From a virus: 31,678 nt of DNA. The notes under the pieces were generated by a model. The model worked only from the letters and a program-made list of their open reading frames with translations. It ran no database searches and had not been told where the DNA came from. The stretch spans positions 6,974 through 38,651 of the IMG/VR virus record IMGVR_UViG_3300001450_008008, one strand, 5' to 3'. The position numbers and the translations under genes were made by a program. Positions 2,432 through 28,480 of the stretch are shown piece by piece (position 1 is the first letter of the stretch; every line of letters begins with the position of its first letter).

Positions 2432-3451
2432 GTGATAAACCTTTCATTTCGAGAGCCTAACCCTAAGTGTGTTTCTTGTCCCATTCTTGCAAAGCCTTTG
2501 CCTACTCATACCGTAATTGAGTATGAGTATGAGAAGGAATGTGACATCCTATTTGTATCCGACTTTCCTAAGATGCACGCTGGTGAGTATGTTGCATTCA
2601 GGGCGCAAGAATTCCAGGCAATAAAGCAGGAGCTAGAGAAACATGAGATAGGAGATCTTAGAGTAGGATTTGATACCGCTCTGAAGTGCCCTGTCGCTTC
2701 TCCTGATGTAGTATCTGCTGTAGCAAGAAAGCAGTGTAAGGTTCACCTTGAGGATACTGTAGATCATTACAAGCCCACGTTGGTGTTTGCTTGTGGTAAG
2801 TTAGCGACTACAATGTTCTATGGAAAGAATGTTGCAGACTCTAAGTCTAGGGGTAAAGTGGTAGACTTCGAAACTCCTAATGGGCATAAGTTTAAGCTTG
2901 TGTCTGTTATGCATCCTTACCAGATTGTATCTGAGCCTAAGAATGCATGGTTGTTTTCTAAGGATATTGAGAACTCGTTAGACTCTGAGATCTTTGGTAG
3001 GAAGAAAAAGAAGACGATCCCTTATGAGATAGTAGCTTGTGCTTCTGACATAGAGGAGCATGGTAAGGAGTTCCTGAACACTGAGGATCCTGTAGCTGTA
3101 GATATTGAGACTACGGGCCTGAACTTCCTGAAGGACATTATCCATACTGTTGCGTTTAGCAAAATGGGTAGCGACATTAAAACTTTAGTAGTACCCATCG
3201 ACCATAAGGAGTTTAAAGCTGGACCTAAGGCTAAGGAAGAGTTGCTTGCTTTTGTTGCAGGGGTGCTAGCCAATAAGAACAATAGAAAGGTCTTGCAGAA
3301 TGCTACTTTTGACCTGAAGTTCCTATTGCGCTACGGGGTCTCTGAAGTGTATAATGTATTCGACACCAAGCTAATGCAGCACTTCTTCAATGAGGAAGTT
3401 CCTAAGTCACTTAGCGACCTAGTATTTTACTACTTCCCTAATGAGGTCTAA
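2432..3451 (+). CDS. Split DNA polymerase I, part 1: UDG-like domain plus 3'-5' exonuclease
   Basis: The 339-residue protein has two domains. Residues 1-190 match family 4/5 uracil-DNA glycosylases: Cys13, Cys16, Cys86 and Cys102 fit the 4Fe-4S ligand pattern, and H161-P162 fits the HPS motif, but the GE-x-PG motif is altered to S-D-F-P-K (43-47), so glycosylase activity is doubtful. Residues 215-339 form the DnaQ-like proofreading exonuclease of family A polymerases, with D224-I-E226 (Exo I) and D294 (Exo II). The reading frame then stops, and the Exo III Asp lies in the next gene. The start is GTG, because a TAG codon lies two codons upstream. UDG-like N-terminal domains are known in some phage PolA proteins, as in SPO1-type phages. 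The following two genes complete the polymerase. Confidence 0.85.
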   Translation: MINLSFREPNPKCVSCPILAKPLPTHTVIEYEYEKECDILFVSDFPKMHAGEYVAFRAQEFQAIKQELEKHEIGDLRVGFDTALKCPVASPDVVSAVARKQCKVHLEDTVDHYKPTLVFACGKLATTMFYGKNVADSKSRGKVVDFETPNGHKFKLVSVMHPYQIVSEPKNAWLFSKDIENSLDSEIFGRKKKKTIPYEIVACASDIEEHGKEFLNTEDPVAVDIETTGLNFLKDIIHTVAFSKMGSDIKTLVVPIDHKEFKAGPKAKEELLAFVAGVLANKNNRKVLQNATFDLKFLLRYGVSEVYNVFDTKLMQHFFNEEVPKSLSDLVFYYFPNEV

Positions 3452-3984
3452 TGTTAACTGTAGATAAATCAACCAAGTTTGATTGGAAGAACATCCCTTT
3501 CGTGGAGTGTGCTGATGGTAATGCCATGGACACTTACTTTACTATAAAGGTATACTCTAAGCTGCTTGAAGAGTTGCAAGCTAAGAAATTGGAAAAGCTT
3601 TATGAGAAGCTTATCTCTCCCTTAACTTTAGCCTTTCGTGACATTGAATTTGAAGGTCTACTTATTGACGAGGAAAAGGTAGCTGAACTCAAACTAGAGC
3701 TTGAGACCAGTATTGAAAAGGCAGAGACTGCTCTCCTATCCTCTGATAGGATCCCTGATGATCTTAACCTTAGGTCGAATCAAGCTCTTTGCAGGGTACT
3801 ATTCTCCATGGAGAAGAATAAGGATAGTGGTGAGTGGGATATTGAAGAGGATGTAGGCTTTGGATTATATCCTTTTGAGTGGACAAAGGGAGGGCAACCC
3901 TCTACAAATCAAGAGACGCTTTCAAAGGTAGAAAGTATGATCACAGAGGAATACGTTCGCAGAGGTTTAAATGTCGAGAAGTAG
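3451..3984 (+). CDS. Split DNA polymerase I, part 2: exonuclease end and start of polymerase domain
   Basis: The 177-residue protein continues the homology to Pol I where part 1 stops. Residues 20-35 hold the Exo III region with Asp27 in A-M-D-T-Y-F-T, aligning with E. coli Asp501, and a Tyr497 counterpart is missing (Gly23). Residues 45-75 match the PolA segment 'P...v...E..G..vD', and 105-165 match the L-N-L-R-S-N-Q-A-L region and the S-T-N-Q-E-T-L strand-helix before the thumb. The start ATG overlaps the previous stop (TAATG) and is preceded by GAGG at 3443-3446, so translation is coupled and has its own ribosome site. No slippery heptamer is seen, and the frame read by ORF 2 has a stop at 3439-3441, leaving a window of only a few bases for slippage. 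A cloning or sequencing frameshift is less likely but not excluded. Confidence 0.8.
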   Translation: MLTVDKSTKFDWKNIPFVECADGNAMDTYFTIKVYSKLLEELQAKKLEKLYEKLISPLTLAFRDIEFEGLLIDEEKVAELKLELETSIEKAETALLSSDRIPDDLNLRSNQALCRVLFSMEKNKDSGEWDIEEDVGFGLYPFEWTKGGQPSTNQETLSKVESMITEEYVRRGLNVEK

Positions 3985-5062
3985 AAGGAATGATAAGGAC
4001 AAGGAATTAGACATCTCTAAGAGTGTCTTAAGCTCATTGTCAGACGAAAGGGTCACTCAGTTATTCAAGTTCTTTGAGAAGCACTCAGAGTTTAAGAAGC
4101 TGTCTAAGCTATACCTGACGTATATTAAAGGTGCTGAACAGGCACTAGAAAATACTGGTAACGGTAGGATGTATGTTAGGTATAGTATTGACGGCACTGT
4201 GACAGGACGTTTAAGTAACTCGGGTGCTAACATCACCCCTGGACGATCAAAGGAAGGTAAGATTGGTGTGTCATTCCATACTCTACCTAGAGAGAATCTG
4301 TCTGTTAATATCCGAGATTATGTCATTGCTCCTCCTGGCTACAACTTCATTACTATTGATATGAAGGCTATGGAGTTGCGTGTATTGGCTCATATTGCTA
4401 ACGAGAAGAATATGATCAAGGCTTTCGAGTCTGGTATCGACCTACACAGTTATTCAGCGGGACTAACATTTGGTAAGGATCCTGATGATGTAACCAAGGA
4501 AGAACGACAGATTGCTAAAGCTGTATCCTTCTTAACGGTATACGGTGGAACCTCTCACACTCTAGCTGCCAAACAGAATATTCCCGAGGAACAAGCAGAG
4601 ACGATCATCCAAAACTGGATGGCTGCATTCCCAGGAGTAGGTAACTACATGAACACTGTTAATGATTACATTAAGCAGTTTGGATATGCTAAGACATTGT
4701 TTGGTAGATTTAGACACCTACCTAATATTAGATCACCCCAAAGGAACATTCGTTCTGAGGCTTTCCGTCAAGGTCTAAACTTTACTATTCAATCTGCTGC
4801 AAGTGACATTCTACTTTGTGGAATGCTTGGAGTAATTGAAAAGCTTAAACCTTTGAAGGGTAAGGTTGTAGCTACCGTTCATGACTCCATTGAGCTTATC
4901 TGCCCAAAGGAGGAGACTGAAGAGGTTGTAGGTATTGTAGTTAATGAGTTAGTTAACTATCCCTACCTAAGGAAACACTTTGGTATTAACCTTAGAGTTC
5001 CCTTAGGTGTAGATGTCGAAGTTGGAACTAGTTTTGGTAACGGAGTTCCTTACGAGGTATAG
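3971..5062 (+). CDS. Split DNA polymerase I, part 3: catalytic thumb-palm-fingers
   Basis: The 363-residue protein carries the whole polymerase active site. Thumb: residues 36-60, with K-L-S-K-L-Y-L-T-Y and T78-G-R-L-S82. Motif A: D130 in I-D-M-K-A-M-E-L-R. Motif B (O helix): R179, K183, F187, Y191, where Phe at the dNTP-selecting position is the E. coli-like state. Motif C: H304-D305-S, with Ser in place of the usual Glu. N270...Q274 matches the N-x-x-x-Q helix. The ATG is 14 bases inside part 2 and has AGAGG at 3961-3965, 5 bases upstream. It returns to the frame of part 1. It would copy phage DNA, but needs parts 1 and 2 for the thumb base and proofreading. It meets the minus-strand gene at 5073 tail to tail with a 10-base gap and no terminator. 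Confidence 0.9.
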   Translation: MSRSRRNDKDKELDISKSVLSSLSDERVTQLFKFFEKHSEFKKLSKLYLTYIKGAEQALENTGNGRMYVRYSIDGTVTGRLSNSGANITPGRSKEGKIGVSFHTLPRENLSVNIRDYVIAPPGYNFITIDMKAMELRVLAHIANEKNMIKAFESGIDLHSYSAGLTFGKDPDDVTKEERQIAKAVSFLTVYGGTSHTLAAKQNIPEEQAETIIQNWMAAFPGVGNYMNTVNDYIKQFGYAKTLFGRFRHLPNIRSPQRNIRSEAFRQGLNFTIQSAASDILLCGMLGVIEKLKPLKGKVVATVHDSIELICPKEETEEVVGIVVNELVNYPYLRKHFGINLRVPLGVDVEVGTSFGNGVPYEV

Positions 5063-5072
5063 CTTACGTATA

Positions 5073-7238
5073 CTAGTTCTCAGTGTCGCCTAGCTTATCA
5101 TCTGAGCTATGCTTCTCTCCAGGCATTAAAGGAACGAGTCCTCTCATACTTCTAATCTTATTAGAGATCCTTTGAGCTTTTGCCTGACGCTCACTCTTCT
5201 CTTTCTTTTTAGCGATTTTAGCTTCGTGTCCTCGCACGCCTTGCTTGTTAACCTCAGTATCCGCTGCGGTAGGCTTCCCTTCCTTACCGTACCCTCCATC
5301 CTTAGTAGCTCTCTTGTGGAGCTTCTTTTTTAAGTAGTCTGGATGATTGGAAGACGTGTTAACGGGAACCCCTTCTTTATCGTGCAGCCCCCCTGCTCTT
5401 CCTTGGCTATCCCTCTTAGTGTGTTTAGCCTTCTTCTTACTCTCAGGCTTTTCCTTGGCGATAACCTTATCTGCTCTGTTCTTAACAGCTTCAGCACCCT
5501 TCTTCATACGCTTTTCTCTCGTCTTAGGATCTGCCTTAGTTTCGTCTGGACTTAACGCCTCTAAAACCTTCTCAGCAAGAGCCATTCGACCCTTCTTAAC
5601 GAGTTCTGTGGAAGCGTTTTGTTTTCCGGGGAGTGGTCCCGCTGCGCCGGTACCATGGCGACTCAGGAATTTCTCGCGTTTATTATCTACTGTATCATAA
5701 GCGGCTTTTCTACTTTTATAATTAGGATCATTCACTGGCGTTTCGTCTTCTTTTTTCCAAGCATCCAGTGTTTGAGCATCTCTACCCTTCCTTACCGCAG
5801 CCACACGACTTTGTCTTCTAGACCAAGGTTCTGCTTGGTATATATCTACAGCCTTCTCAGCAAGAGCCATTCGACCCTTCTTAACGATTTCTTTGGAATT
5901 GTCGCGACGCCTTCGATTTGCATCTCTAGCTCGGGTAGTATTACCCCCTCCCGCTAATGTGGTCGTAGTTGCCCCACCCCCTGTCCTTTCTGGTTGATCA
6001 TCTGTAGCTCTTCTTGACCGTGGAGCATTTTTGTCTGCTCTGCCTTCAAAGCGAGGAGAACCCGCAGGTGCTTCTGGAGTTTCTCTTTGGACCGCTCCTT
6101 GGGGCTTATCCTCTGACTTACCAGCATTCCAATTATCTATTTCTTTATTCTTAGATGTATCCCTTACTGCTCTCCTAATGTTATCCATGACGGAAAGGTT
6201 AGGCTGTTCTAGGTCTGGAGTTTTTGGCTCTGCTGCTTTATTTCTAGCTCTATTAACTGCTCTCCTAGAGGTTCCATATGCTGTTGTTGCTGCTGCTGGT
6301 GTTGGCTTCGCTGCTGGTGCTGGTGCTGTTGTTGCTGCTGCTGGTGTTGGCTTCGCTGCTGGTGCTGGTGCTGGTGTTGGCTTCGCTGCTGCTGCTGGTG
6401 CTGGTGCTGGTGCTGGCCTCGCTGCTGCTGCTGGTGCTGGTGTTGCTGCTGGTGCCGCTTTAGGAAATTTCGTAGTGCTTGTTTGAATTGGGTCATTTCT
6501 ATTTTTGTATAAATCACGACCCTTACTTTTAATATCCTCAAAACTAGGAAGTCTGCTCTTAAACTTAGATAATCTTCCTGGAATAGTTTTCGCGCCTCCT
6601 GCCCCTCCATCGGGAAGAAGTGGGTTGGGCCTTGGACCGCTTCTACCTCTTACGGAGGTTTGGGGAATGTTCCGCTTTACCGCCCTACCGACAGCAGATC
6701 CCGCCTGCTTGTAAGCACTCACTTGCTGTCCAACCTCCCGACCAATTCCACTCGCAATAGCTTTAGCCCTGTCCTTAATCCTATTCCATCTTCCTGGTCG
6801 CGGATCACTCACTTCATAGAGGCTAAAAATAGCTTCCTTAATGGCTTTCTTCTTCTTGCTAGCCTTAGTAGGAACACAATTAGGGACTTGCTTCCCACTC
6901 TTCATTTTCATGCCATATGCAGTGTAACCCTTCCAACATGCCTCTGCTAGAGCAATACGAGCATCTCGAACTATCTCAGTCGAGCAGTTCCACTTCTTCA
7001 ATGACAGGCTAAGACGATCTTTGCCCGTATTGTTACTGTCTTTTTGTCTCTTTCTCATGCCACTCATACGGGCACAGAAGGACTTCTTTCTAGCTCCTCC
7101 TTGTGGTTGAGGGGCTTTTAGGTCTGACCCTGGATTCTCTCTCTCGTAGGACTTTCTCCCTTTAGCGTTAAGACCTCCTTTCGGATTCTTCCCAGCCTTC
7201 TTTGTCCAAGCAGCACCTTCTTCTATTTTATTCTTCAT
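5073..7238 (-). CDS. Large basic repeat protein with DUF6321-like N-terminus
   Basis: The 721-residue protein is very rich in Lys, Arg, Ala and Pro. Residues 8-61 (W-T-K-K-A-G-K-N-P-K-G-G-L, then F-C-A-R-M-S-G-M) match the DUF6321-type domain seen in many phage proteins of unknown role. V118-P-N-C-V-P123 is another motif recurring in phage proteins. A helix of the form (S/T)-(K/T)-E-(I/L)-V-x-x-(A/G)-R-(M/I)-A-L-A-E occurs three times (about residues 87-99, 450-463 and 545-558), the last two encoded by an identical 36-base repeat. Residues about 259-319 are an Ala/Pro linker. The C-terminus is charged and probably disordered. The start has AGGA 9 bases upstream but no CTATNAT box. A virion-internal, DNA-associated or scaffold role would fit the charge, but no function is established. 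Confidence 0.7.
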   Translation of the reverse strand: MKNKIEEGAAWTKKAGKNPKGGLNAKGRKSYERENPGSDLKAPQPQGGARKKSFCARMSGMRKRQKDSNNTGKDRLSLSLKKWNCSTEIVRDARIALAEACWKGYTAYGMKMKSGKQVPNCVPTKASKKKKAIKEAIFSLYEVSDPRPGRWNRIKDRAKAIASGIGREVGQQVSAYKQAGSAVGRAVKRNIPQTSVRGRSGPRPNPLLPDGGAGGAKTIPGRLSKFKSRLPSFEDIKSKGRDLYKNRNDPIQTSTTKFPKAAPAATPAPAAAARPAPAPAPAAAAKPTPAPAPAAKPTPAAATTAPAPAAKPTPAAATTAYGTSRRAVNRARNKAAEPKTPDLEQPNLSVMDNIRRAVRDTSKNKEIDNWNAGKSEDKPQGAVQRETPEAPAGSPRFEGRADKNAPRSRRATDDQPERTGGGATTTTLAGGGNTTRARDANRRRRDNSKEIVKKGRMALAEKAVDIYQAEPWSRRQSRVAAVRKGRDAQTLDAWKKEDETPVNDPNYKSRKAAYDTVDNKREKFLSRHGTGAAGPLPGKQNASTELVKKGRMALAEKVLEALSPDETKADPKTREKRMKKGAEAVKNRADKVIAKEKPESKKKAKHTKRDSQGRAGGLHDKEGVPVNTSSNHPDYLKKKLHKRATKDGGYGKEGKPTAADTEVNKQGVRGHEAKIAKKKEKSERQAKAQRISNKIRSMRGLVPLMPGEKHSSDDKLGDTEN
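5567..5602. repeat. 36-base direct repeat, copy 1
   Basis: This copy is identical over 36 bases to 5852-5887, 285 bases away and in the same reading frame of the large minus-strand gene. It encodes the V-K-K-G-R-M-A-L-A-E helix, so it reflects an internal duplication within the protein. Confidence 0.9.
5852..5887. repeat. 36-base direct repeat, copy 2
   Basis: This is the second copy of the repeat at 5567-5602. Flanking bases are similar but not identical (GATTTCTTTGGA versus GAGTTCTGTGGA), so the duplication extends slightly and has drifted outside the core. Confidence 0.9.
6282..6462. repeat. Low-complexity GCT/GGT triplet repeat coding an Ala/Pro linker
   Basis: The plus strand is a run of GCT and GGT triplets with interspersed GTT and TTC. 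Read on the minus strand it gives blocks of Ala-Pro and Lys-Pro-Thr-Pro, a typical flexible linker. A unit of about 40 bases containing GGTGTTGGCTTCGCTGCT recurs three times. Such tracts vary in length by slippage. Confidence 0.85.
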
Positions 7239-16893: not shown

Positions 16894-18066
16894 ATGGAAT
16901 TAAACAGAAAGCTGAAGATCCTAGTTGTGTATGCAAATCATGGAGGATGTAGTTATTATCGACAACTGTCTCCAATGAAGATGATGTCTGAAGAGTTAGC
17001 GGATAAGGTCGAGGTTCGCTACACTGATAATCCTCTAGAGTTAGACACTAGTTCAGGTTCCATGCCTCCTTCGGAGAAGCTTGATGATATGAACTGGGCA
17101 GACATTATATTCATGGCAAATATCCTTAAATGGGGAGGGCCTTATACTGCTAGAGTATGTGGAATTGCTAATGAACTTAAAAAGTTTATGCACTTTGATA
17201 CTGACGATCTTCTGACAGACTTATACGAGGGTCATCACCTATATGACGTATACAAGGAAAATAAATTAGGTGACATTACTAAGTTTGTCTACGCTAATTC
17301 CCATTTAGTGACAGTGACTCAGGCTAAGTTCGCAGAAAGAATTAAACCTTATGTTGGGAAGTGTTTGGCTGTCGTTAAAAATACTTTAGACTATAAGCTG
17401 CCTGCTTGGAATCACCCTAAAACAAAGTCTAAGCCTACTAGAGTAGGGTACGCTGCGGGAATTCACCACAGGAACGATGTTAAAGTTTTTAGTAGCATTC
17501 CTCACTTAGTAAATCAAAGAGTTGGAAAAGAAAACGTAAAGTGGGATTTTTATGGGCATCCTCCTCCTGACGCTAACAAGCCTAAGGATTCTTGGGAGTC
17601 AAAGGTATGGCCTGAGTATATGCAGAGCCTTCTAAAAGGCTTCAAGGGAAACAAAAACTATCAGATACACTATGCACTACCCCCAAACGATTACGGCGTT
17701 TACTACGCAAATATGGACGTTGCAATTGCTCCCCTAGAGGACAACGCTTTCAACGATTCCAAGTCGGATATTAAGGTAGCCGAATGCTCCAGATACAAGA
17801 TTCCTTTAGTGGCAAGCAATGTAGGTTGCTATAATGAAACTATCATAAATGGAGAGACTGGATACTTACTAGATCCAGACGCTCCTAAGTCGGAGTGGGT
17901 TAAAATTCTTACTAAGCTGTGCAAGGATAAGAAGCATAGAATGGAGTTAGGCCAAAATCTCCATGATAGAACGAAGGACTTGTTTAACGGGAGAAAGTGT
18001 GCCCAGATGCGGTATGATTTATACATTAGAGCAATTACAGATACAGGACATAAAATAAATGATTAA
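16894..18066 (+). CDS. Glycosyltransferase, GT-B fold (GT4-like)
   Basis: The 390-residue protein opens with a Rossmann-type strand I-L-V-V-Y-A-N-H-G-G-C and a Y-Y-R-Q-L helix. The C-terminal half holds D-V-A-I-A-P-L-E-D, then K-V-A-E-C and P-L-V-A-S-N-V-G-C-Y-N-E, the EX7E-type nucleotide-sugar site of GT4 enzymes, and G-E-T-G-Y-L-L. It would transfer a sugar from a nucleotide donor to a growing glycan. Acceptor and donor cannot be read from sequence. It is the first gene of the 15-gene glycan module and overlaps the next by 8 bases. No membrane segment is seen. Confidence 0.8.
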   Translation: MELNRKLKILVVYANHGGCSYYRQLSPMKMMSEELADKVEVRYTDNPLELDTSSGSMPPSEKLDDMNWADIIFMANILKWGGPYTARVCGIANELKKFMHFDTDDLLTDLYEGHHLYDVYKENKLGDITKFVYANSHLVTVTQAKFAERIKPYVGKCLAVVKNTLDYKLPAWNHPKTKSKPTRVGYAAGIHHRNDVKVFSSIPHLVNQRVGKENVKWDFYGHPPPDANKPKDSWESKVWPEYMQSLLKGFKGNKNYQIHYALPPNDYGVYYANMDVAIAPLEDNAFNDSKSDIKVAECSRYKIPLVASNVGCYNETIINGETGYLLDPDAPKSEWVKILTKLCKDKKHRMELGQNLHDRTKDLFNGRKCAQMRYDLYIRAITDTGHKIND

Positions 18067-18820
18067 AGTTTTAAGTGGATTTACTGGGCCAGGGGGAAGT
18101 ACCGTGGCTTTTTGCAATCTTGTTAACCTGTTCAATAAAAATGGGATGAAGGCTTGTCTTTACGGTCCTCATGAGTGGGAGGGTATTAATTGTAAATTTA
18201 AAAGAGAAGAGCCTCTAATCAATACTGATGATACTGTAATTTACCATTTCCGAAAGCCTCCAGACAGCCGATGCGCGAAGATGATACTTTCAACTCATGA
18301 GACTGAGATTTTTCCTATAAAGGGCATAGAAGGTCTTAAGCATGATGCGGTTCACTTTGTCTCAGATTTTCAAAAGAAGTGGCAAGGCGTTGACGGAACT
18401 GTAATACCTAATGTAGTCACTAGATATAGCCCTTCAACCAAACTTAAAAAAGTTGCTGCCGTTATCGGTAGTGTTGACCAGAATAAAAGAACTCAGGAGT
18501 CTATACAGAGGGCTTTAGAGGAAGGGCATGATGATGTTAGAGTCTATGGAAATATCACTGATGGGGGTTACTTCGCTACGAAGGTATTGCCCCTTTTAGG
18601 AGAGAAAGTCTCTTACAGAGGCGTTTCGAGCGACATGAAGGCTGTATATGCTACTGTCACGGACGTATATCACTCACCCAAGATGGAGACGTTTAATCTT
18701 ATAAAAGCGGAGTGTAAGTATGCTAATGTGAACTATCATGGAGATGAAGGAAATGATACTCAGGCTGAGTATTGGGATGACGAGAAAATACTAGAATCAT
18801 GGAAAAGTCTATTAAATTAA
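18059..18820 (+). CDS. Short GT-B glycosyltransferase-like protein
   Basis: The 253-residue protein has G-P-G-G-S-T near residue 10, the donor-site loop of GT4-type enzymes, and near the C-terminus D-V-Y-H-S-P-K-M-E-T-F-N-L-I-K-A-E, a version of the E-T-F-x-L-x-x-x-E motif. It is about 100 residues shorter than typical GT4 proteins, with the linker between the two Rossmann halves trimmed. It overlaps neighbours by 8 bases upstream and 22 downstream. Function is probably sugar transfer within the same glycan as its neighbours, but loss of parts of the acceptor half leaves activity uncertain. Confidence 0.65.
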   Translation: MIKVLSGFTGPGGSTVAFCNLVNLFNKNGMKACLYGPHEWEGINCKFKREEPLINTDDTVIYHFRKPPDSRCAKMILSTHETEIFPIKGIEGLKHDAVHFVSDFQKKWQGVDGTVIPNVVTRYSPSTKLKKVAAVIGSVDQNKRTQESIQRALEEGHDDVRVYGNITDGGYFATKVLPLLGEKVSYRGVSSDMKAVYATVTDVYHSPKMETFNLIKAECKYANVNYHGDEGNDTQAEYWDDEKILESWKSLLN

Positions 18821-20469
18821 GTATAGTCATTGCTTACTACAACAGAAAGGAGTTATTTTTACGGACACTTACCTCTATTAATAGTTCAAAACATGTTGGG
18901 TCAATTGAGATTGTTGTTGTAGATGACGGGAGTGTGGAGGAAGAAAGACTGGAGGATATAGTGGGGAATTATTCTTTCCCTATTAATTTAATTAGAGTTG
19001 AGCCGAAGGATAAGTGGTATACTAATCCTTGCATACCTTTTAATAAGGGGTTTAAGGCTGCTAAAGGTGACATTGTTATAATTCAGAATCCCGAATGTTA
19101 CCATATGGGGGACGTAATAGATCATGCCTTATCTAACATCAATGATGAAACCTATATTTCATATGCTACGTATGCTTTATCACAAAAGCAAACGGACTCC
19201 TTAGGGACCGAAGAGTTGAAGGTGACTCACCAACCCTCAAACGGGGAAGGTAATGAGGGTTGGTATAATCACGCAAGCATAAATCCAAGACCTTATCATT
19301 TTACTTCCTGTATAACTAAACGTAATTTAGATAAGATGGGAGGGTTTGATGAAGAGTATGCTTTGGGGGATGGGTTTGATGATGATGCATTCCTAATGAG
19401 AATAAGTAAGGAAATGAACTTACGGGTTATAATTCCTGAAACCCTGGGGGTCCTACACCAGAATCATTATAATGGCGGAGGGTATTTTGATGTTAAATCT
19501 TCTCTTGACGGGTTCCATAAACACCCTCATCGACTTTGGAGAAATCAAAATATATTTAATAGAAAGTTAAATGTTAACAATTCTCATAAGCCAGAGAAAA
19601 AGTATAATAGCTCTTTCGATAATATTCCTAAAATTGCTCATTTTTACTGGGAAGGGGACAGGTTTTCTTATTTACACTTCTTAAGCATTAAAAGTTTTAT
19701 TGATAAAAACCCCGATTGGAAATGCTTAGTTCACACAAACAAAGCTAAGGTTGAGGTTAACAATGATGCATGGAGCACTGGCGAGCAAAAAGCGGAGTAT
19801 ACAGGAAAAAATTACTTCAGTAAACTACAAGAATTAGATTTAACTATTAACGAAATAGATTTTGAAGATTTAGGTATAAGTCCTGATCTTAACCCTGTTT
19901 ATAAATCTGATTTACTTAGATGGTATCTTCTAGGGACTCAAGGAGGTGCATGGATAGATGTTGATATTTTACATCTTAAGCCTCTAAGCACCCTTGGGTA
20001 TTATATGAAGGATAATTCGGATGGGTGCTTTTGTTATAGCCCTACTCCTATGCCTCACTTTATTATCGGATTCTTCTTGTCAAAGGCTGATAACCCATTC
20101 TTTATGCGCCTGTTCGAAGAGGGTAAGAAAGAGCGTCAAATTGACTATCAAATGTATGGCAATAAATTATTAGATAAAGTATACAGAGACCGTGCCCAAC
20201 AGATCGCAACCCAATCCCATTACCCCCAGATCCCCGAGTCTATGAATATGGAAAATGTTTACTGGGAATCATTTTATGTTCATCCTTGGTTTGAGGTCAA
20301 TATGTTATTTAACGAGAAACACGATAGGTATAAGGATGAGCATGTAATTGGGGTACACTGGTTTAATGGAAATTCTATAGCCACAGAATTCTGCAATAAA
20401 TTTGATGAAAATTACAGTGTAGAAAATCCAAAAACTACGATAGAGGAAATTATTAATGACTCACTTTAA
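18799..20469 (+). CDS. Two-domain glycosyltransferase, GT2 fused to GT32-like
   Basis: The 556-residue protein has an N-terminal GT-A domain (about 5-235) with D42-D43-G and F-D-E-E-Y-A-L-G-D-G-F-D-D-D, as in GT2 enzymes, and a C-terminal domain (about 275-545) with D-L-L-R-W-Y-L-L-G-T-Q-G-G-A-W and D387-V-D389, the DXD metal site of GT32 (Gly_transf_sug) enzymes. Each domain could add a different sugar in sequence. The fusion is in one uninterrupted frame without any sign of frameshift. The coding sequence is distinctly A+T rich compared with the replication genes. Confidence 0.8.
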   Translation: MEKSIKLSIVIAYYNRKELFLRTLTSINSSKHVGSIEIVVVDDGSVEEERLEDIVGNYSFPINLIRVEPKDKWYTNPCIPFNKGFKAAKGDIVIIQNPECYHMGDVIDHALSNINDETYISYATYALSQKQTDSLGTEELKVTHQPSNGEGNEGWYNHASINPRPYHFTSCITKRNLDKMGGFDEEYALGDGFDDDAFLMRISKEMNLRVIIPETLGVLHQNHYNGGGYFDVKSSLDGFHKHPHRLWRNQNIFNRKLNVNNSHKPEKKYNSSFDNIPKIAHFYWEGDRFSYLHFLSIKSFIDKNPDWKCLVHTNKAKVEVNNDAWSTGEQKAEYTGKNYFSKLQELDLTINEIDFEDLGISPDLNPVYKSDLLRWYLLGTQGGAWIDVDILHLKPLSTLGYYMKDNSDGCFCYSPTPMPHFIIGFFLSKADNPFFMRLFEEGKKERQIDYQMYGNKLLDKVYRDRAQQIATQSHYPQIPESMNMENVYWESFYVHPWFEVNMLFNEKHDRYKDEHVIGVHWFNGNSIATEFCNKFDENYSVENPKTTIEEIINDSL

Positions 20470-21196
20470 AGTAATAATGCCATTTTTTAATGTTGAACCT
20501 TGGATAAAAAATGGTATTAAGTCTCTTCGTCAACAAACTTATAAAAATTTTAAATGTCTATTAATAGATGATATGTCAACGGACGGGTCATGTGATCTTA
20601 TTGAGCAAGAGATAAAAGGTGATAGTAGGTTCAGGCTTTTAAGAAATAGTGAAAAAAAGTATGGGCTTAGAAATTATTATGAGGGGATTAAGTTAACCAA
20701 TCCTAAAAAAGACGATATAATTATTACCTTAGATGGTGATGATTGGCTTTACAATACTAATGTATTAAAAACCTTAGATACCGTTTATACTGAGAGTGAC
20801 TGCTGGCTAACTTATGGAAATTATATCAGATACCCGACAGGTGAGTTGGGCCACTGCACAAAATATCCAGACCATGTAATTCAGGGTGGCTTATATAGGC
20901 AAGATGTTTGGAGAGCTTCTCAACCAAGAACGTTTAAGTATGGCTTGTGGGAAAAAATAAAGATTGATGATTTGAAGGATGAGGAGGGGAACTTTTACTC
21001 TGTCGCTTGGGACTTTGCTTTTATGTTTCCTTTACTAGAAATGTCTGCTGAGAAACATGTTTTTATAGATCAAATTTTATATGTGTATAATAGAGACAAT
21101 CCTAGTAATGATGACAAGCTTTATATGGATCGTCAAGTAGCCACAGGTGATAAGATTAGAACTTTTAAGCCGTATAAAAGATTAGAATATTTATGA
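20456..21196 (+). CDS. Glycosyltransferase family 2
   Basis: The 246-residue GT-A protein has the GT2 layout: V-I-M-P-F-F-N at the N-terminus, Q-T-Y-K-N-F then D38-D39-x-S-T-D-G, and the metal-binding D93-G-D95-D. The C-terminal part holds W-D-F-A-F-M-F-P-L-L-E. It would use a nucleotide-sugar with Mg or Mn to extend a glycan. Overlaps are 14 bases upstream and 4 downstream (ATGA), so it is translationally coupled. The coding sequence is very A+T rich; the first line of the gene has only about a quarter G+C, consistent with recent acquisition. Confidence 0.85.
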   Translation: MTHFKVIMPFFNVEPWIKNGIKSLRQQTYKNFKCLLIDDMSTDGSCDLIEQEIKGDSRFRLLRNSEKKYGLRNYYEGIKLTNPKKDDIIITLDGDDWLYNTNVLKTLDTVYTESDCWLTYGNYIRYPTGELGHCTKYPDHVIQGGLYRQDVWRASQPRTFKYGLWEKIKIDDLKDEEGNFYSVAWDFAFMFPLLEMSAEKHVFIDQILYVYNRDNPSNDDKLYMDRQVATGDKIRTFKPYKRLEYL

Positions 21197-22482
21197 GTAA
21201 ATTTATTGTAGAAAATCCTAGGGACTTGTTGACTTTTTTGCGATTCGATATTACAGCGAAAACTCTTTACGCTAGGCACAGAGAAAAAGGGGTGGAAAAT
21301 ATATGGGCAAAAAACGTATATGAGCATCATTTGAATGTATGGGGGGGATTTACGGAGAAGTCACCCAAGAAAAATGGTATACAAGATTTTTATAATTCCT
21401 ACCATAAAGTGTTAGATAGTATAAAGACTAGTGGCTTTAATGAGGATAAGTCTAGAATTCCTGTATCTGAAAATTTTCTACTTTTAAATGGGGCACATAG
21501 AGTTTCCGCAGCTATTATACATAATAAACCCGTAGTATGTGAGATTAGTTCTTTAGACTCTGGACAATTGGAGTGCCCCTCATGGTATTTTCAGAATAAA
21601 AAAGATATCGTGCCCACTGGGTTAACTGAAGACGTATCTGATTCTATGGCATTAGAGTATACAAGATTAAAGTCCAATACCTATTTGGCAACTGCGTATC
21701 AACATACCTTTCCACACGGTAACATAGTAGCAACCACCTTTAAAAAGTATGGTATAAATATTGTATACTCAAAAAATATTACACTTACTCCTAAAGGACA
21801 ATTAAATTATTTATTGGCATTATACGGTGATGAGGAATGGATGCAGGGGAGTAGAGATTGTGGTTTCCCCGGCGCGACATCCCAACATAGGTATAACTTT
21901 TCTCATGGACCGCACATAAAAGCTATTCTGCTTGAGTCTGATTCCGTAGACAAAGTTTTGAAGGCAAAAAAGGAAATTAGAACTTTAGTTGGAGCAGGAA
22001 AGGGTTCTATACATACCACCGATACTAGAAAAGAAACGTGGAGGAATGCTTGCATATGTTTTCATACTCCTACTGTTAATTATATGAATGAGTGTGATGT
22101 AGGATCATTTCATGAAAGTAAATTCAAGGAGTTTATAACTGAGACTAAAAGAATTATTTCAGATAGTAACGTAGATATCGAAGATGTTTGTGTTGTAGGG
22201 AGTGCCCCGTTGGCAGCGTATGGAAAGCGAGAGTGTAGAGACTTTGATATTCTTCATCTTTCTTCTAGATCCACGATAAAATTTAATGATATAATTTCTT
22301 CGCATAATGATTATCTTGAGTATTACGATGAATCATTGGAAGAGATAATTTTCAATCCAAACAAGTATTTTTATATTGACGGGTTGAAGTTTATCTCCTT
22401 AGAAGGTATGAAAAAGATGAAGTCTATTCGAGGAGAGGAAAAGGATTTTAGGGACATACGGTTGATAGAAAACTGTTTGTAG
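21193..22482 (+). CDS. ParB-like plus nucleotidyltransferase-like fusion protein
   Basis: The 429-residue protein has near residues 89-112 I-P-V-S-E-N-F-L-L-L-N-G-A-H-R-V-S-A-A, the G-x-H-R-x-x-A signature of ParB/sulfiredoxin-like domains, which occur in some polysaccharide clusters. The C-terminus from about 330 has G336-S337 and D350-F-D352, the G-S-x11-D-x-D pattern of the nucleotidyltransferase fold, followed by a K-D-x-x-D-I end typical of these domains. The middle (about 140-320) is unassigned. It could prepare a phosphorylated or nucleotidylated sugar or polyol for the module, but no substrate can be named. Confidence 0.55.
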   Translation: MSKFIVENPRDLLTFLRFDITAKTLYARHREKGVENIWAKNVYEHHLNVWGGFTEKSPKKNGIQDFYNSYHKVLDSIKTSGFNEDKSRIPVSENFLLLNGAHRVSAAIIHNKPVVCEISSLDSGQLECPSWYFQNKKDIVPTGLTEDVSDSMALEYTRLKSNTYLATAYQHTFPHGNIVATTFKKYGINIVYSKNITLTPKGQLNYLLALYGDEEWMQGSRDCGFPGATSQHRYNFSHGPHIKAILLESDSVDKVLKAKKEIRTLVGAGKGSIHTTDTRKETWRNACICFHTPTVNYMNECDVGSFHESKFKEFITETKRIISDSNVDIEDVCVVGSAPLAAYGKRECRDFDILHLSSRSTIKFNDIISSHNDYLEYYDESLEEIIFNPNKYFYIDGLKFISLEGMKKMKSIRGEEKDFRDIRLIENCL

Positions 22483-22491
22483 GTTTTATTT

Positions 22492-23145
22492 ATGGAAAAA
22501 AAGAAAAATGTATTAGTTTACTGTGGTACTAACAATGGAGAAGGGTTCTTGAACACTATCAGGTCTAGAAATTGGGATCACATTTATGGCTTTGAAGCTA
22601 ACCCAACGTTGTATAAAAAAGTTAAAGATCTACTCGCGGGGGATCATAGAGTAAAAATGTATAATACTATTCTTTCAAACTCCCATGGGGAAGAGAAAGA
22701 TTTTTATATATTAGATGCCAATGGGTCAGGACATGATTACTCCTCCAGCGTTGTAAATAAGTCTGATTGGCTTCCCGAATATGAGAACATGTCGGGGAAT
22801 CGTATTGAGCTTAAAAGAGTAGTTAAATTAAAGACTACCAATTTAAATATCTTTTTGCATGAAGAAAGTATAACTGAGATTGATTTTTTGCTTACGGACT
22901 TGGAAGGTTCTGATTTATTAGTAATTACTACGATAAAAGATTGGATATCGGAAGGAAAGATTAAAAAGATTCAATGTGAGGTTGAGCCTGACTCTATGCC
23001 TTGTAAGTATGTAAAGTTAGATAATAAGTTTTCAGGCTTTAACGAGTTGGTGAAAAAGAACTATAATCTAATCGCTAAGTATCAAGACATGCCAGGGTAT
23101 TTTTGTGTCGATCATGTATGGGCCTTGAAGAATGATAAAAACTAA
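22492..23145 (+). CDS. FkbM-type SAM-dependent methyltransferase
   Basis: The 217-residue protein has the FkbM pattern: a SAM-binding Y-C-G-T-N-N-G-E-G-F (10-19, replacing the usual D-V-G-A-N-x-G), Y-G-F-E-A-N-P (32-38) for the SAM ribose, and T-D-L-E-G-S-D near 135-142. FkbM enzymes O-methylate sugars or polyketides, so it may cap or decorate the glycan. It is separated from the upstream gene by 9 bases and overlaps the next by 14. It contains no N-terminal signal or membrane segment. Confidence 0.75.
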   Translation: MEKKKNVLVYCGTNNGEGFLNTIRSRNWDHIYGFEANPTLYKKVKDLLAGDHRVKMYNTILSNSHGEEKDFYILDANGSGHDYSSSVVNKSDWLPEYENMSGNRIELKRVVKLKTTNLNIFLHEESITEIDFLLTDLEGSDLLVITTIKDWISEGKIKKIQCEVEPDSMPCKYVKLDNKFSGFNELVKKNYNLIAKYQDMPGYFCVDHVWALKNDKN

Positions 23146-23992
23146 AGTATACTTCCCTGGAGCCTATGGAGTGTCTAGTAAGAAGATTACTATTTGGTAT
23201 AGGAAACTTTTATCATCAACTAATGAAACAATTGAGATTGTTGATGATGTAAAGGAGTGTGATTATGTAATCATGCAGGATCAGACAGATGAGAACTTGC
23301 CAGAAGATAAGCAAGTTATATTCTTTCAAAAAGAGCCTGATCATGTTAAGCATTATACTTATGATAAAGCTACCCTATATAAGTCCTTTTACCATAGTAA
23401 GGGCGAAGGGTGGATGATCCAGACACCATGGCTTAGTATGTCCCATGATGAGTTGGTAGAGATGCCTCCCCCTCCAAAACGACACTTAATATCAGTTGTA
23501 GATTCAGGAAGAACTGCGTTGCCGGGGCATCACCTTAGATTACATGCTTTGAATGATATTATTAAGCATGTTCCCAATATTCATTTGTATGGACATATTA
23601 CAAAAGGAAGAGAAAATACTGGGCATTTTAAAACATGCCTACCTGAAAGAACTAAAGAGGCAGCGTTCCTAGACTATAAGTATGCAGTTGCAATTGAAAA
23701 TGGAAGAACCCCCTGTTACTTCAGTGAAAAGATTATTGACCCTATCTTGTGTTGGACTACTCCTATTTATTGGGGTTGTTCCAATATCAGCAAATACTTT
23801 CCTAAAGGCTCCTTTGTTGAAATAAAAGGGTTAGAAAAGGATGTAGGATCCCATGTGGAGGCTATAATAGAGAGTAAGCATCATGAAGAGAATATGGATG
23901 CGTTAGCCGAAGCTAGAGATCTAATTTTGAATAAATATAATCTCATTCCTACTATAGAAAAAGCTCTTGTTTCTAATAACCTTTGGGAGTAG
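23132..23992 (+). CDS. Family 10 fucosyltransferase-like glycosyltransferase
   Basis: The 286-residue protein carries the GT10 signature: Y184-A-V-A-I-E189-N, then Y-F-S-E199-K200, and T-P-I-Y-W-G, with K-Y-F-P-K-G-S-F-V-E-I after it. GT10 enzymes transfer L-fucose from GDP-fucose in alpha-1,3 or alpha-1,4 linkage. The Gmd gene in this module makes the precursor of GDP-fucose, but no GDP-fucose synthase is recognised in the window, so the donor may come from the host or the donor may be a different GDP- or UDP-sugar. It overlaps the FkbM gene by 14 bases. Confidence 0.85.
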   Translation: MIKTKVYFPGAYGVSSKKITIWYRKLLSSTNETIEIVDDVKECDYVIMQDQTDENLPEDKQVIFFQKEPDHVKHYTYDKATLYKSFYHSKGEGWMIQTPWLSMSHDELVEMPPPPKRHLISVVDSGRTALPGHHLRLHALNDIIKHVPNIHLYGHITKGRENTGHFKTCLPERTKEAAFLDYKYAVAIENGRTPCYFSEKIIDPILCWTTPIYWGCSNISKYFPKGSFVEIKGLEKDVGSHVEAIIESKHHEENMDALAEARDLILNKYNLIPTIEKALVSNNLWE

Positions 23993-23995
23993 TCT

Positions 23996-24406
23996 ATGCT
24001 TAAAATATACTCTAAAAAAAATAGAAAGCTTTTACATTTAGTATACTCGCCCTATCAGTTATCAGACGGAGTAACTGAACTTGTTGATCCTTCAAACTTT
24101 ATTCAGTGTATGTTTTTAAAGCTCCACAAAGGAAAGATATTCAAAGCTCACCAACACCTTTGGAAGGATGTGACAAACAAGCAAACTATCGCTCAAGAAA
24201 GTTGGGTTGTTTTGAAGGGGTCTGCAAGAGGGTATTTTTACGATATAGACGGTGTGTTACTAAATGCCATAGATCTTAAAGAAGGAGATATTACTTTTAC
24301 TTTAGAGGGAGGTCATCACTTTGAAATATTAGAAGACGATACAATGATTTATGAGTTTAAAACTGGTCCTTATGAGGGGGTAGAAAAGGATAAGAGTTTC
24401 CTATGA
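23996..24406 (+). CDS. Cupin-fold protein in sugar pathway
   Basis: The 136-residue protein has a double-stranded beta-helix pattern: K50-A-H52-x-H54 metal ligands, V-L-K-G-S-A-R-G-Y-F-Y, G-D-I-T-F-T and G-G-H-H-F-E. Such cupins sit beside surface-sugar genes and act as isomerases or sugar-binding proteins, but the reaction of this type is uncertain. It lies between a fucosyltransferase and a sugar C-methyltransferase and shares an ATGA overlap with the latter. Confidence 0.7.
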   Translation: MLKIYSKKNRKLLHLVYSPYQLSDGVTELVDPSNFIQCMFLKLHKGKIFKAHQHLWKDVTNKQTIAQESWVVLKGSARGYFYDIDGVLLNAIDLKEGDITFTLEGGHHFEILEDDTMIYEFKTGPYEGVEKDKSFL

Positions 24407-25581
24407 GTTATACTAAGATTATAGATCTGGGGATGCATCCCTACGCTGATTCGTTTATCCCAGAGAAAGACTTGGGAAGGTCTGAACCTGTGTATCCTCT
24501 TCAGTGTGGGTTAGATACGGAGACGGGACACGTTAAGTTAATGTATGAGACAGACCCAGACCAACGGTATAACTTATATCCTTATTCATATACTTCCTCC
24601 AATTCAAAAGTTGCTAGGGAGCATTGGGAAGATTACGCCAAACATACTGCTAAAAAAGTAAATCTTCAATCCAACAGTAATGTTATTGAAATTGGATCCA
24701 ATGACGGATTCCTGTCGGTACAGTATAAAAATATGGGCTGTAGGGTAAGGGGGGTAGACCCATCTAAAGCAATGGCTGATCTTGCAGACGAGCAGGGTAT
24801 TCCTACTTACTGCACTATCTTTAATTTAGAAAAAGCTTTAATTCTAAAGCCACAGTTAGGGGGTTTGGCCGATCTTATTGTAGCGAATAATGTTTTTAAT
24901 CATGCAAACGACCCAATAGATTTTGCGTTAGGGATACAGGAACTTCTATCAGATACAGGAACCTTCATTTTTCAAGTACCTTATTGGTATAATACCATTA
25001 CGGATGAAAAGTTTGACCAAATTTATCATGAACATATCAGTTATTTCACAGTGAAGTCTGCTTGCAATCTTTTAAGCTCGGTAGGATTGAAGGTTTATGA
25101 TGTGGAATGGGTAGACTATCATGGAGGATCCATTAGGGTCTATGCGTCCAAAGAAGACCGTGAGCAAACAAAGGAGGTACAGGAGTTTATTATCACCGAG
25201 GAAGATGCTAACCTGTTCGATCCTGAGTACTATACGGAATTTATGGAAAAGATAAATAAAAAGAGATATTTATTTTTATCTAAGCTGTATAGACTTAAGG
25301 GGGGAGGGCATCCAATTGTTGCAGTTGGTGCGGCTGCTAAGGGAAATACCTTCTTAAATTATTACAATTTAGATAATAGCATTATTGATTATGTTACAGA
25401 TACCTCAGAATACAAGATAGGAAAATATACTCCCTTAAGCAGAATTCCTATTCAAACAGATGCTGAAGTTTTCTCTAAGTATGAGAAAGTTTATGCAGTA
25501 ATTCTTTCATGGAATATTTCTGCTTTGATTAAAGAGAAGCTTAAGGATATTAACCCAAATATACAATTTCTACTAAAATGA
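24403..25581 (+). CDS. NDP-sugar C-methyltransferase
   Basis: The 392-residue protein resembles TylC3/NovU/TcaB9 sugar C-methyltransferases. V94-I-E-I-G-S-N-D-G-F103 is the SAM site, Y208-H-E-H-x-x-Y-F the catalytic Tyr/His segment, and the C-terminal Rossmann region contains G-A-A-A-K-G-N-T. These enzymes methylate C3 of 4-keto deoxysugars. The family normally begins with a zinc site made of two C-x2-C pairs. Here the first pair is absent and only Cys35 remains of the second, so the zinc site is lost. Gmd and the 4,6-dehydratase make 4-keto sugars that could be substrates. Confidence 0.85.
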   Translation: MSYTKIIDLGMHPYADSFIPEKDLGRSEPVYPLQCGLDTETGHVKLMYETDPDQRYNLYPYSYTSSNSKVAREHWEDYAKHTAKKVNLQSNSNVIEIGSNDGFLSVQYKNMGCRVRGVDPSKAMADLADEQGIPTYCTIFNLEKALILKPQLGGLADLIVANNVFNHANDPIDFALGIQELLSDTGTFIFQVPYWYNTITDEKFDQIYHEHISYFTVKSACNLLSSVGLKVYDVEWVDYHGGSIRVYASKEDREQTKEVQEFIITEEDANLFDPEYYTEFMEKINKKRYLFLSKLYRLKGGGHPIVAVGAAAKGNTFLNYYNLDNSIIDYVTDTSEYKIGKYTPLSRIPIQTDAEVFSKYEKVYAVILSWNISALIKEKLKDINPNIQFLLK

Positions 25582-25982
25582 AAAAACGAAATATTAAAGA
25601 TATAGAAGACACCCTCCTTGAATCACACACAGATGATAGAGGTACGATTGTAGATTTATTTTACAATGAAACCATCCACCATGTAGCTAGAGTAACTTCA
25701 GAGCCAGGAGTTATTAGGGGTAATCATTACCACAAAGAAACTACCCAACATATGCTAATGACTCAAGGATCTTTAGAGTATTGGTATAAGGGAGTAGACT
25801 CGGATGAACCTGCACAAATGGTGCTTGCTCTCGAAGGGGATATTGTGTCTACTCCCCCCAACGAGATTCATGCTCTTAAGATTGGTCCTGAAGGAAATCA
25901 GTTTATTGTTTTCTCGGAAGGTACTAGAGGGGGTCAGGATTATGAGTTGGATACTTTCCGAGTTGAAGATATAATTCTATGA
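25578..25982 (+). CDS. RmlC/WxcM-like cupin, possible sugar epimerase or isomerase
   Basis: The 134-residue protein shows D-x-R-G-T-I-V-D-L near 19-27, metal-type R47-G-N-H50-x-H52, M-T-Q-G-S-L-E-Y-W-Y and P-P-N-E-I-H. This fits cupins of the RmlC or FdtA/WxcM kind, which epimerise or isomerise 4-keto sugars at C3/C5 or move the keto group to C3. Which of these applies cannot be decided from sequence. It lies between the C-methyltransferase and the aminotransferase, with ATGA overlaps on both sides, which fits a shared 4-keto intermediate. Confidence 0.7.
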   Translation: MKKRNIKDIEDTLLESHTDDRGTIVDLFYNETIHHVARVTSEPGVIRGNHYHKETTQHMLMTQGSLEYWYKGVDSDEPAQMVLALEGDIVSTPPNEIHALKIGPEGNQFIVFSEGTRGGQDYELDTFRVEDIIL

Positions 25983-26581
25983 GCTTTAGCAAGGTCAAAG
26001 AGTTTGAGGAAAAGATCGCAGAGTTTTATAATGCGCCATACGCTGTTGCCGTAGACTGTTGTACTCATGCGGTTGAGTTATGTTTGCGTTATGATAAGCC
26101 CTCTAATGTTACATTTCCTACAAGGACTTATATTTCTATTCCTTTTCTTGGTGATAAATTAGGAATTACTTGGGATTGGGATACTGAGGAGTGGAAAGAT
26201 TGTTATTATATCGGTGATACGAGGATCGTGGATGCGGCGGTATTATGGAGGGAAGGCAGCTACATCCCAAGAACTTTAATGTGTCTTAGCTTTCAGTTCC
26301 AAAAACACCTAAGCTTAGGCAGGGGTGGGATGATTCTGACGGACAACAAAGAAGCTGCCATAGCTTTGAAAAAAATGTCTTATGATGGTCGCCTTCCTGG
26401 TATCCCTTGGCGAGATCAGGATATTGACTCCGTAGGGTATCACTATTACATGACTCCTGAGACTGCTGCTCTAGGTATGTCTAAATTAGAAAAAGCTAAG
26501 ACCGACAAGCCTAGAGAGTGGAGCGTAAACGATTGGCCTGATCTTAGAAATATGAGTGTATTCAAGCATAAGGGACTATAA
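25979..26581 (+). CDS. Minimal DegT/DnrJ-type sugar aminotransferase
   Basis: The 200-residue protein has the fold elements of PLP sugar aminotransferases at half the usual length (about 370). A cofactor-binding helix-start V-D-C-C-T-H-A (25-31), D85-A-A as the Asp contacting the PLP ring, and Q108-K109-H-L-S-L-G-R-G-G-M-I-L-T, where K109 is the Schiff-base Lys, are all kept. The C-terminal small domain is lost. It would convert a 4-keto or 3-keto sugar to an aminosugar if active. The stop at 26579-26581 lies inside the promoter for gmd. No frameshifted remainder of the missing half was found downstream, so this is a compact form and not an obvious fragment. Confidence 0.7.
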   Translation: MSFSKVKEFEEKIAEFYNAPYAVAVDCCTHAVELCLRYDKPSNVTFPTRTYISIPFLGDKLGITWDWDTEEWKDCYYIGDTRIVDAAVLWREGSYIPRTLMCLSFQFQKHLSLGRGGMILTDNKEAAIALKKMSYDGRLPGIPWRDQDIDSVGYHYYMTPETAALGMSKLEKAKTDKPREWSVNDWPDLRNMSVFKHKGL

Positions 26582-26582
26582 T
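26576..26582 (+). promoter_or_regulatory. CTATAAT promoter for gmd, inside the glycan module
   Basis: CTATAAT overlaps the stop codon of the aminotransferase and is followed by 6 bases and the ATG at 26589. It suggests that Gmd and the downstream sugar genes can be transcribed separately from the glycosyltransferases. Confidence 0.55.
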
Positions 26583-26588
26583 CCTACT

Positions 26589-27551
26589 ATGGCGAGAGTA
26601 GCACTTATTGTTGGTATTAGTGGGCAGGACGGGAGTTACCTAGCAGAATTACTGCTATCTAAAGGGTATGAAGTTCATGGTATCTTAAGGAGAAACTCTG
26701 TGTCAGAAAACCAAGACTCTAGAATTAGAGATCTGAATGTTACCTGCCACTATGGGGATCTTTTGGACATTCCCTCCTTAACAAGGATCGTCTCAGAAGT
26801 AAAGCCGGACGAAGTTTACAATCTAGGAGCGCAGAGTCATGTTAGGATTAGTTTTGATGTTCCTTCTTTCACAATACAAACAAATGCTTTAGGGGTTTTA
26901 AATCTTTTAGAGGTATGCCGATTATTCGTTCCGAAGGTTAAGTTTTACCAAGCAAGTTCTTCTGAGATGTTTGGTAATTCAGTAGATGAGGATGGGTATC
27001 AGAGGAAGACTACTGTTATGAATCCTACTTCTCCCTATGGATGTGCAAAGGTAATGGGGTATAACTTAGTTAGGCATTACAGGGCTGCATATGATATGCA
27101 TACTTGCAACGGGATATTGTTTAATCACGAATCTCCTCGTAGAGGGGCAAACTTTGTCACTAATAAGATTGTGAAGGGGGCTGTAGAAATTAAGAAAGGT
27201 CTTAGGAAAGATCTATACTTAGGTAATCTAAATGCTTCCCGAGACTGGGGGCACTCAAAGGATTACGTTAGAGCTATGCATATGATCGTTACCCACGATA
27301 CCCCCAGTGATTGGGTGGTAGCGACAGGCGAAAGCAGGACCATTCGAGACATGTGTAAGGTAACTTTTGATAGGCTTGGACTTAACTACGAGGACTATGT
27401 TAAAGTGGATCCTAAGTACTTTAGACCTCAAGAACTTGATTTTCTACGGGGAGACTCCTCGGAGATTAGGGAAGAGCTAGGTTGGAAGCCTGAATATAGC
27501 TTTAAATCCATGGTTGAAGAGATGGTAGACCATTGGATGGAGATTGTATGA
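26589..27551 (+). CDS. gmd: GDP-mannose 4,6-dehydratase
   Basis: The 320-residue SDR enzyme turns GDP-D-mannose into GDP-4-keto-6-deoxymannose, precursor of GDP-fucose, GDP-rhamnose and GDP-perosamine. G9-I-S-G-x-x-G15 binds NADP, S-S-S-E126-M-F-G carries the catalytic Glu, and Y150-x3-K154 is the catalytic pair. The C-terminal R-D-W-G and the F-R-P-x-E/L motif follow. A GTG at 26556 is in frame, but the natural Gmd start M-A-R-V-A-L-I begins at 26589, and CTATAAT lies 6 bases ahead, so I used the latter. The stop overlaps the next ATG (ATGA). Confidence 0.93.
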   Translation: MARVALIVGISGQDGSYLAELLLSKGYEVHGILRRNSVSENQDSRIRDLNVTCHYGDLLDIPSLTRIVSEVKPDEVYNLGAQSHVRISFDVPSFTIQTNALGVLNLLEVCRLFVPKVKFYQASSSEMFGNSVDEDGYQRKTTVMNPTSPYGCAKVMGYNLVRHYRAAYDMHTCNGILFNHESPRRGANFVTNKIVKGAVEIKKGLRKDLYLGNLNASRDWGHSKDYVRAMHMIVTHDTPSDWVVATGESRTIRDMCKVTFDRLGLNYEDYVKVDPKYFRPQELDFLRGDSSEIREELGWKPEYSFKSMVEEMVDHWMEIV

Positions 27552-28480
27552 AAGACAAGAGGATTTTTATTACTGGGGGCGCGGGATTCTTAGGAACCCA
27601 CATCGTAGACAGATATCACACATCAAATGATATTACAGTTTACAGTAGGGACGAAGCTAAACACTATTACCTATCTAAAAAATATCCAAAGGTAAACTTC
27701 ATTATCGGAGATGTTAGGAATCGGGATCATTTAATCAGATCTTGTAAGGATCATGAGGTAGGGATTTTTGCTGCTAGCCTAAAGCAGATTGATATTTGCA
27801 GCAAAAATATTGAGGAATCGGCTCAAACCATTATTCAAGGCTCCTTCAACAGTAAGACTGCTGCCCTTGATAACAACTTTGAGTCAGCTTGTTTTATAAG
27901 TACGGATAAGAGTCGCTCTGCGACCACTGTGTATGGTGCTATGAAATATGTCGCAGGGGAGTCTTTTATCCTTAACAATGATAAGGTGAGCACTAGATGT
28001 AGCACTGCACTGTATGGCAACGTAATGAACTCTACGGGAAGCCTCATTCCCCTTATAAGAAATGCTATTCAAAACAAAATCCGTCTAACCCTTTATAGTA
28101 AAGATATGACTAGGTTTATGATCAGTGTTGATGACGCGATCAATCTTATTGACACCTCTCTTAAATTACGAGATGTTACAGTAATCCCTAATCTTAATAG
28201 CTTCTTGGTTAAAGATGTCTTTGATATCTACAAGGAAGAGTTTGGACTAGAATACACCATGGGAACCCCCAGAGTGAACGAGAAAATTCATGAGATTATG
28301 TCTTCTGAAGAAGAAATACCTAGAATGAAGTATTTAAAAGGAGAAGACTGTTATATGATGGATCCTTATCTGATACATGATACTGTTAAGTTTCCTAATT
28401 CTGAATATAGCTCTAAAGATGTGGTTATAGATAAAGAAAGACTATACACTTACTTAAAGGAAAACAACTTTTACTTATGA
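27548..28480 (+). CDS. UDP-GlcNAc 4,6-dehydratase/5-epimerase, FnlA/CapE/WbjB type
   Basis: The 310-residue SDR enzyme has G10-G-A-G-F-L-G16 for NADP, S118-T-D-K121 and Y129-x3-K133. It belongs to the extended SDR group of PseB, FlaA1 and CapE, which convert UDP-GlcNAc to a 4-keto-6-deoxy sugar, with inversion at C5 in the CapE type. The next gene is a WbjD-type 2-epimerase and the one after it an RmlD-like reductase, the set known for UDP-L-FucNAc or UDP-L-QuiNAc, which supports the CapE reading. An in-frame ATG at 27533 exists, but the ATG at 27548 fits the ATGA coupling and has GGAG upstream. Confidence 0.8.
   Translation: MKDKRIFITGGAGFLGTHIVDRYHTSNDITVYSRDEAKHYYLSKKYPKVNFIIGDVRNRDHLIRSCKDHEVGIFAASLKQIDICSKNIEESAQTIIQGSFNSKTAALDNNFESACFISTDKSRSATTVYGAMKYVAGESFILNNDKVSTRCSTALYGNVMNSTGSLIPLIRNAIQNKIRLTLYSKDMTRFMISVDDAINLIDTSLKLRDVTVIPNLNSFLVKDVFDIYKEEFGLEYTMGTPRVNEKIHEIMSSEEEIPRMKYLKGEDCYMMDPYLIHDTVKFPNSEYSSKDVVIDKERLYTYLKENNFYL

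Follow-up and report, generated by a model that had tools for sequence, protein, structure and literature searches.

A 31,678-nucleotide stretch of DNA from a marine virus (IMG/VR virus record IMGVR_UViG_3300001450_008008, positions 6,974–38,651; hereafter, the window) encodes one collinear family A DNA polymerase in three adjacent plus-strand genes: g1 (339 amino acids, 2432–3451), g2 (177 amino acids, 3451–3984), and g3 (363 amino acids, 3971–5062). Taken together, the three products contain, in order along the chain, a uracil-DNA glycosylase (UDG)-like domain, a 3'–5' exonuclease, and a polymerase (UDG-exo-pol). It is near certain that the three genes are separate. From the sequence evidence, we place at roughly 0.87 the probability that their products are a divided UDG-exo-pol polymerase that assembles non-covalently into a DNA polymerase I (Pol I)-like phage replicase, and we consider it likely that the assembled enzyme copies the phage genome.

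Such a split had been proposed in an initial annotation of this DNA, and its gene coordinates and frames proved exact, as did the two joints: a TAATG at 3449–3453, in which the g1 stop and g2 start share one base (joint 1), and a 14-base overlap at 3971–3984 with g3 in the +1 frame and AGAGG upstream (joint 2). Its claim that Pol I homology runs unbroken over the three frames is borne out by the PHROG family phrog_17 (DNA polymerase), which is matched at 478–782 by g1, at 796–882 by g2, and at 932–1236 by g3; because these matches are in order, the homology continues over both joints. For the assignments below, profiles of g1, g2, and g3 built from 11–12 relatives were compared with solved structures, and AlphaFold (AF2) models were made as single chains.

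Domain content of the three genes

The g1 product comprises a family-4-UDG-like domain (residues ~8–190), which the initial annotation had not named, followed by the first ~147 residues of the exonuclease. It matches DNA_pol_A_exo1 in Pfam (PF01612, 5.5e-14) and, slightly below the Pfam cut-off, UDG (PF03167, 6.6e-5), and its profile matches both the family 4 UDG 4zbx (3.7e-9) and the Klenow fragment (1e-5). In the AF2 model (predicted local distance difference test [pLDDT] 88.8), residues 8–190 superpose on 4zbx (Z 17.5, root-mean-square deviation [rmsd] 3.4, 174 aligned) and residues 193–339 on Klenow residues 324–470 (Z 13.3, rmsd 2.5, 142 aligned). The predicted fold and four Fe-S cysteines (C13, C16, C86, and C102), invariant in the aligned relatives, are those of a family 4 UDG; the catalytic motif A of that family (GEAPG) is absent, and a diverged stretch stands in its place in the aligned relatives. 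The UDG-like domain (window 2432–3001, g1 residues 1–190) thus has a kept HP motif and a changed motif A, and is fused to an exonuclease piece. It may sense uracil instead of excising it.

The g2 product has no Pfam match on its own, so annotation of single open reading frames (ORFs) would miss replicases of this kind. Its profile nevertheless matches the Klenow chain 1kln at positions 158–294, equivalent to E. coli residues 481–617 (E 8e-16), and the protein can be read as the C-terminal part of the exonuclease with the Exo III Asp, a linker, and the first part of the thumb (PSTN..ETL). Residues 72–165 of its AF2 model (pLDDT 85) align with E. coli Pol I 547–622 (Z 5.8, rmsd 2.5, 76 aligned), and its best Foldseek matches are Pol I enzymes, none of them below E 0.05. 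The structural Z is middling for a helical piece, and the assignment rests on the sequence match.

The remainder of the thumb, the palm, and the fingers are encoded by g3, which matches DNA_pol_A in Pfam (PF00476, E 1.3e-72) and whose profile matches Bst Pol I, beginning at the thumb, at about 1e-65. All three polymerase motifs were found in this gene, as the initial annotation had stated: motif A, DMKAMELR (D130–E135); motif B, RQIAKAVSFLTVYG (R179/K183/F187/Y191), with Phe at the 762 position; and motif C, HDS (H304–D305), in which D305 is followed by Ser in place of Glu. With its palm and fingers and these motifs, g3 belongs to the family A (Pol I) DNA polymerases.

Profile matches and AlphaFold models agree on where the chain is divided. 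At joint 1 the break comes after Klenow residue ~470, leaving Exo II (D424) on one side and Exo III (D501) on the other; joint 2 is in the thumb, at Pol I residue ~622. The four ligands (D, E, D, D) of the DEDD 3'–5' exonuclease superfamily are accordingly shared between two genes: Exo I (D224, E226) and Exo II (D294) in g1, and the Exo III Asp (D27) in g2, a distribution that had been noted earlier and in which every residue is present and invariant in alignments of 42–43 sequences. Because of this arrangement, proofreading would require two polypeptides.

Conservation of the split among relatives

Three IMG/VR scans yielded the loci L001–L080 and L082–L237, and one scan of genome contigs yielded L238. 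After removal of duplicates by g2–g3 sequence, 124 loci remained, 120 of which have g1 in view. Because the queries came from the split clade, the frequency of single-chain neighbors cannot be read from this sample. Relatives in the first scan have g3 proteins 47–100% identical to that of the window; among annotated phages, neither g1 nor g3 has a match above 60% identity, and the window g2 has none.

No continuous frame exists among the 124 loci, nor does any open frame match two or more of the profiles; rather than the single-chain Pol I architecture, with exonuclease and polymerase in one open frame, every split-clade locus carrying the region has three genes. Always on the same strand as g2–g3 (120/120 loci), g1 meets g2 through the same 1-nt overlap as in the window in 80 of the 120 loci, and a few-base gap or overlap occurs in 3. 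The other 37 have 274–2403 nt of unrelated genes at this position, the main gap-filling frame lying on the opposite strand in 22 of them. Joint 2 is an overlap in nearly all loci, most often of 8 nt (76/124) or 4 nt (20/124).

The inserts are varied. An HNH endonuclease gene sits exactly between g1 and g2 in one locus and extends into the g2 start (L037:3886–4503); it may be a trace of the event that created the split, or it may have arrived later. Another locus has a 2OG-Fe(II) oxygenase gene between g1 and g2 and a DUF6445-matching gene between g2 and g3 (L072:4363–4989); no other intact locus was seen to carry an insert at joint 2. In a g2+g3 tree, the g1–g2 insertion state changes at least 13 times, with at least 9 changes forced by well-supported branches, so the g1/g2 boundary has repeatedly opened or closed while the genes were retained. 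The MLTV start of g2 is kept in relatives irrespective of what lies upstream.

Capsid, replication, and neighboring genes

Eleven related contigs of 60–131 kb contain one PF00476 match each and no match to PF00136 (PolB) or PF07733 (Pol III alpha). A T4-type major capsid protein (Gp23) is encoded in all six of the large contigs tested, and a tail-sheath match was obtained in four of the six, two of them above the cut-off; the terminase of one large contig is ~30–35% like those of T4-type phages. The six contigs L048, L044, L036, L015, L062, and L066 combine the Gp23 capsid with a split family A polymerase and have no detected family B polymerase, unlike T4. The split polymerase also occurs, in one copy, on L238, a 130,604-base contig, equal in length to the L048 record, of Prochlorococcus AG-409-P03, which we take from its name to be a single-cell genome.

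Other features lie on both sides of the polymerase genes in the window. A short minus-strand ORF at 2050–2484, whose 5' end overlaps the g1 start on the opposite strand, has a weak match to sigma-70 region 2 (E 0.003). Downstream, a long, repetitive Ala/Pro-rich protein is encoded on the minus strand at 5073–7238; over its first ~85 residues, this protein has matches to several PHROG families whose function is unknown. A run of glycosyltransferase, methyltransferase, and nucleotide-sugar epimerase-like genes at 16894–29586 resembles a surface-glycan cassette.

Interpretation

We favor a model in which the three genes would give rise to separate proteins, usually through termination coupled to re-initiation within a single operon, and these proteins would associate non-covalently into a Pol I-like replicase. 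The g2 product would act as a bridge: its N-terminal part would complete the g1 exonuclease fold, adding the fourth catalytic Asp, and the C-terminal part would complete the thumb that continues in g3.

Several observations weigh against this reading. Although g2 keeps the Exo III Asp, the Exo III Tyr (Klenow Y497), which in Pol I stands four positions ahead of that Asp, is replaced by Gly23. The motif here is C-x-x-G-N-A-x-D (g2 C20–D27, window 3508–3531), and C-x-x-G-N-[AY]-x-D recurs in 123 of the 124 loci, the remaining locus ending at a contig edge; Gly thus occupies the Pol I Tyr position throughout the group, and the enzyme falls into neither the DEDDy nor the DEDDh subclass, which have Tyr or His there. 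Loss of this Tyr puts the strength of proofreading in doubt, and proofreading may be weak or altered. The g2 model has a low predicted template-modeling score (0.51, single chain). Moreover, the 11 large contigs may be incomplete, and another polymerase could therefore have been missed.

A variant of this model is a regulated holoenzyme, in which g1 would dock reversibly on a g2–g3 core; only with g1 bound would there be a proofreading site and, possibly, uracil sensing. The g1 gene often stands apart from g2–g3, and we hold this variant to be a tentative, rather unlikely possibility.

Less probable still is that the genes are decaying relics, or have a role in repair, and that a host or other phage polymerase copies the genome. 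Loss of the Exo III Tyr and alteration of UDG motif A fit this idea, but strong purifying selection acts on each of the three genes, with median pairwise ratios of nonsynonymous to synonymous substitution (dN/dS) of 0.065 (g1), 0.05 (g2), and 0.04 (g3) among pairs with dS of 0.2–1.2, and the catalytic residues are invariant. Nor does any other polymerase of family A, B, or C appear in the 11 large contigs, and the window itself codes for a DnaB-like helicase and a single-stranded DNA-binding protein (SSB).

Programmed frameshifting at both joints, which would yield one polymerase, seems highly improbable. The short overlaps at the joints would suit it, and the initial annotation's report that neither joint has a slippery sequence was only partly correct: a T TTA AAT heptamer does sit at joint 2 (3966–3972). 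This heptamer slips −1, the wrong direction for g3 in its +1 frame; X XXY YYZ heptamers are missing at joint 2 in 105 of 124 loci and at joint 1 in 70 of the 80 tight joints. The downstream starts instead have Shine-Dalgarno-like sites, as had been noted for the window: GAG or longer precedes g3 in 117/124 loci (GAGG or AGGAG in 92/124) and g2 in 59/80 tight joints, and the g2 start is conserved. Together with the lack of any joined frame in the split clade, the 37 loci with DNA, often opposite-strand genes, between g1 and g2, and the locus with a gene also between g2 and g3, make a frameshift fusion untenable and exclude sequencing error, in agreement with the earlier preference for separate subunits.

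Rejoining of the pieces through split inteins or trans-splicing introns is about as improbable. Phage polymerase genes are common intron homes, and the HNH endonuclease at joint 1 of L037 could be read in this way. However, the end of g1 and the start of g2 are near consecutive Pol I positions, leaving no space for intein halves; the joints coincide exactly with stop and start codons; and no Rfam match of any kind was obtained in the window and ten loci. That sequencing or assembly errors split an intact gene is a negligible prospect despite the metagenomic source and one locus in which g2 appears frameshifted (L057:4587–5005, two frames meeting at ATGA with ~25 residues missing, either an assembly error or a further break), given that about 120 distinct loci, obtained from many samples, are interrupted in the same way, as is the presumed single-cell contig, and that a locus (L001) is identical to the window over 10 kb save one gap.

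Comparison with known polymerases

If the divided-polymerase reading is correct, these phages possess a natural three-part split replicative polymerase, with both the proofreading site and the thumb divided, that has been kept across a diverse marine group. The joints would then offer engineers of split polymerases cut points already tried in nature, and the system would let the dependence of proofreading on subunit docking be tested directly.

Two-piece phage polymerases are already known, and we found no precedent for the three-piece form: no three-piece family A polymerase was encountered in the open-access literature, a search whose range excluded most subscription articles and every bioRxiv preprint. 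One close case is that of the OM43 phages MEP401 and MEP402, marine phages like those described here, whose family A polymerase also occupies more than one ORF and is kept in this state by most relatives of their group (PMC10580990). They differ in having two ORFs, with the break inside the PF00476 domain and a small unknown ORF between, and in an exonuclease domain that is whole and joined to the N-terminal polymerase part; a UDG-like domain is unmentioned in the portions of that report consulted. The T4-like phages 44RR and 25 have a split gene 43 (43A/43B), in association with homing endonucleases (PMC2988022). Here too the replicase consists of separate polypeptides, though it is of family B and in two pieces. 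The phage 25 pieces co-purify and show polymerase activity (PMC2988022), a precedent indicating that split halves are able to associate and work. The T4-related Rhodothermus phage RM378 has its exonuclease (p024, PolB exo) and polymerase (p092, PolB) in separate, distant genes, and differs in being of family B and divided between domains. We rejected RM378 as a close polymerase relative, as none of the g1, g2, and g3 profiles matches its genome.

Single-chain counterparts share the domain order of the split clade. The polymerase of Agrobacterium phage JP1 matches all three profiles in that order but is one continuous protein, and one frame of Aerococcus phage AVP likewise matches the three, the third partially. 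A scan for neighbors of the JP1 polymerase gave one single-chain locus, L241, which matches the g1 and g2 profiles and differs from the split clade in being one chain in which the Exo III Tyr (YQAHD) and the GEAPG motif of the UDG domain are both retained. Most probably, a single-chain UDG-exo-pol polymerase of the kind still present in JP1 and L241 was permanently broken in two places in the ancestor of this group of marine phages with a T4-type capsid.
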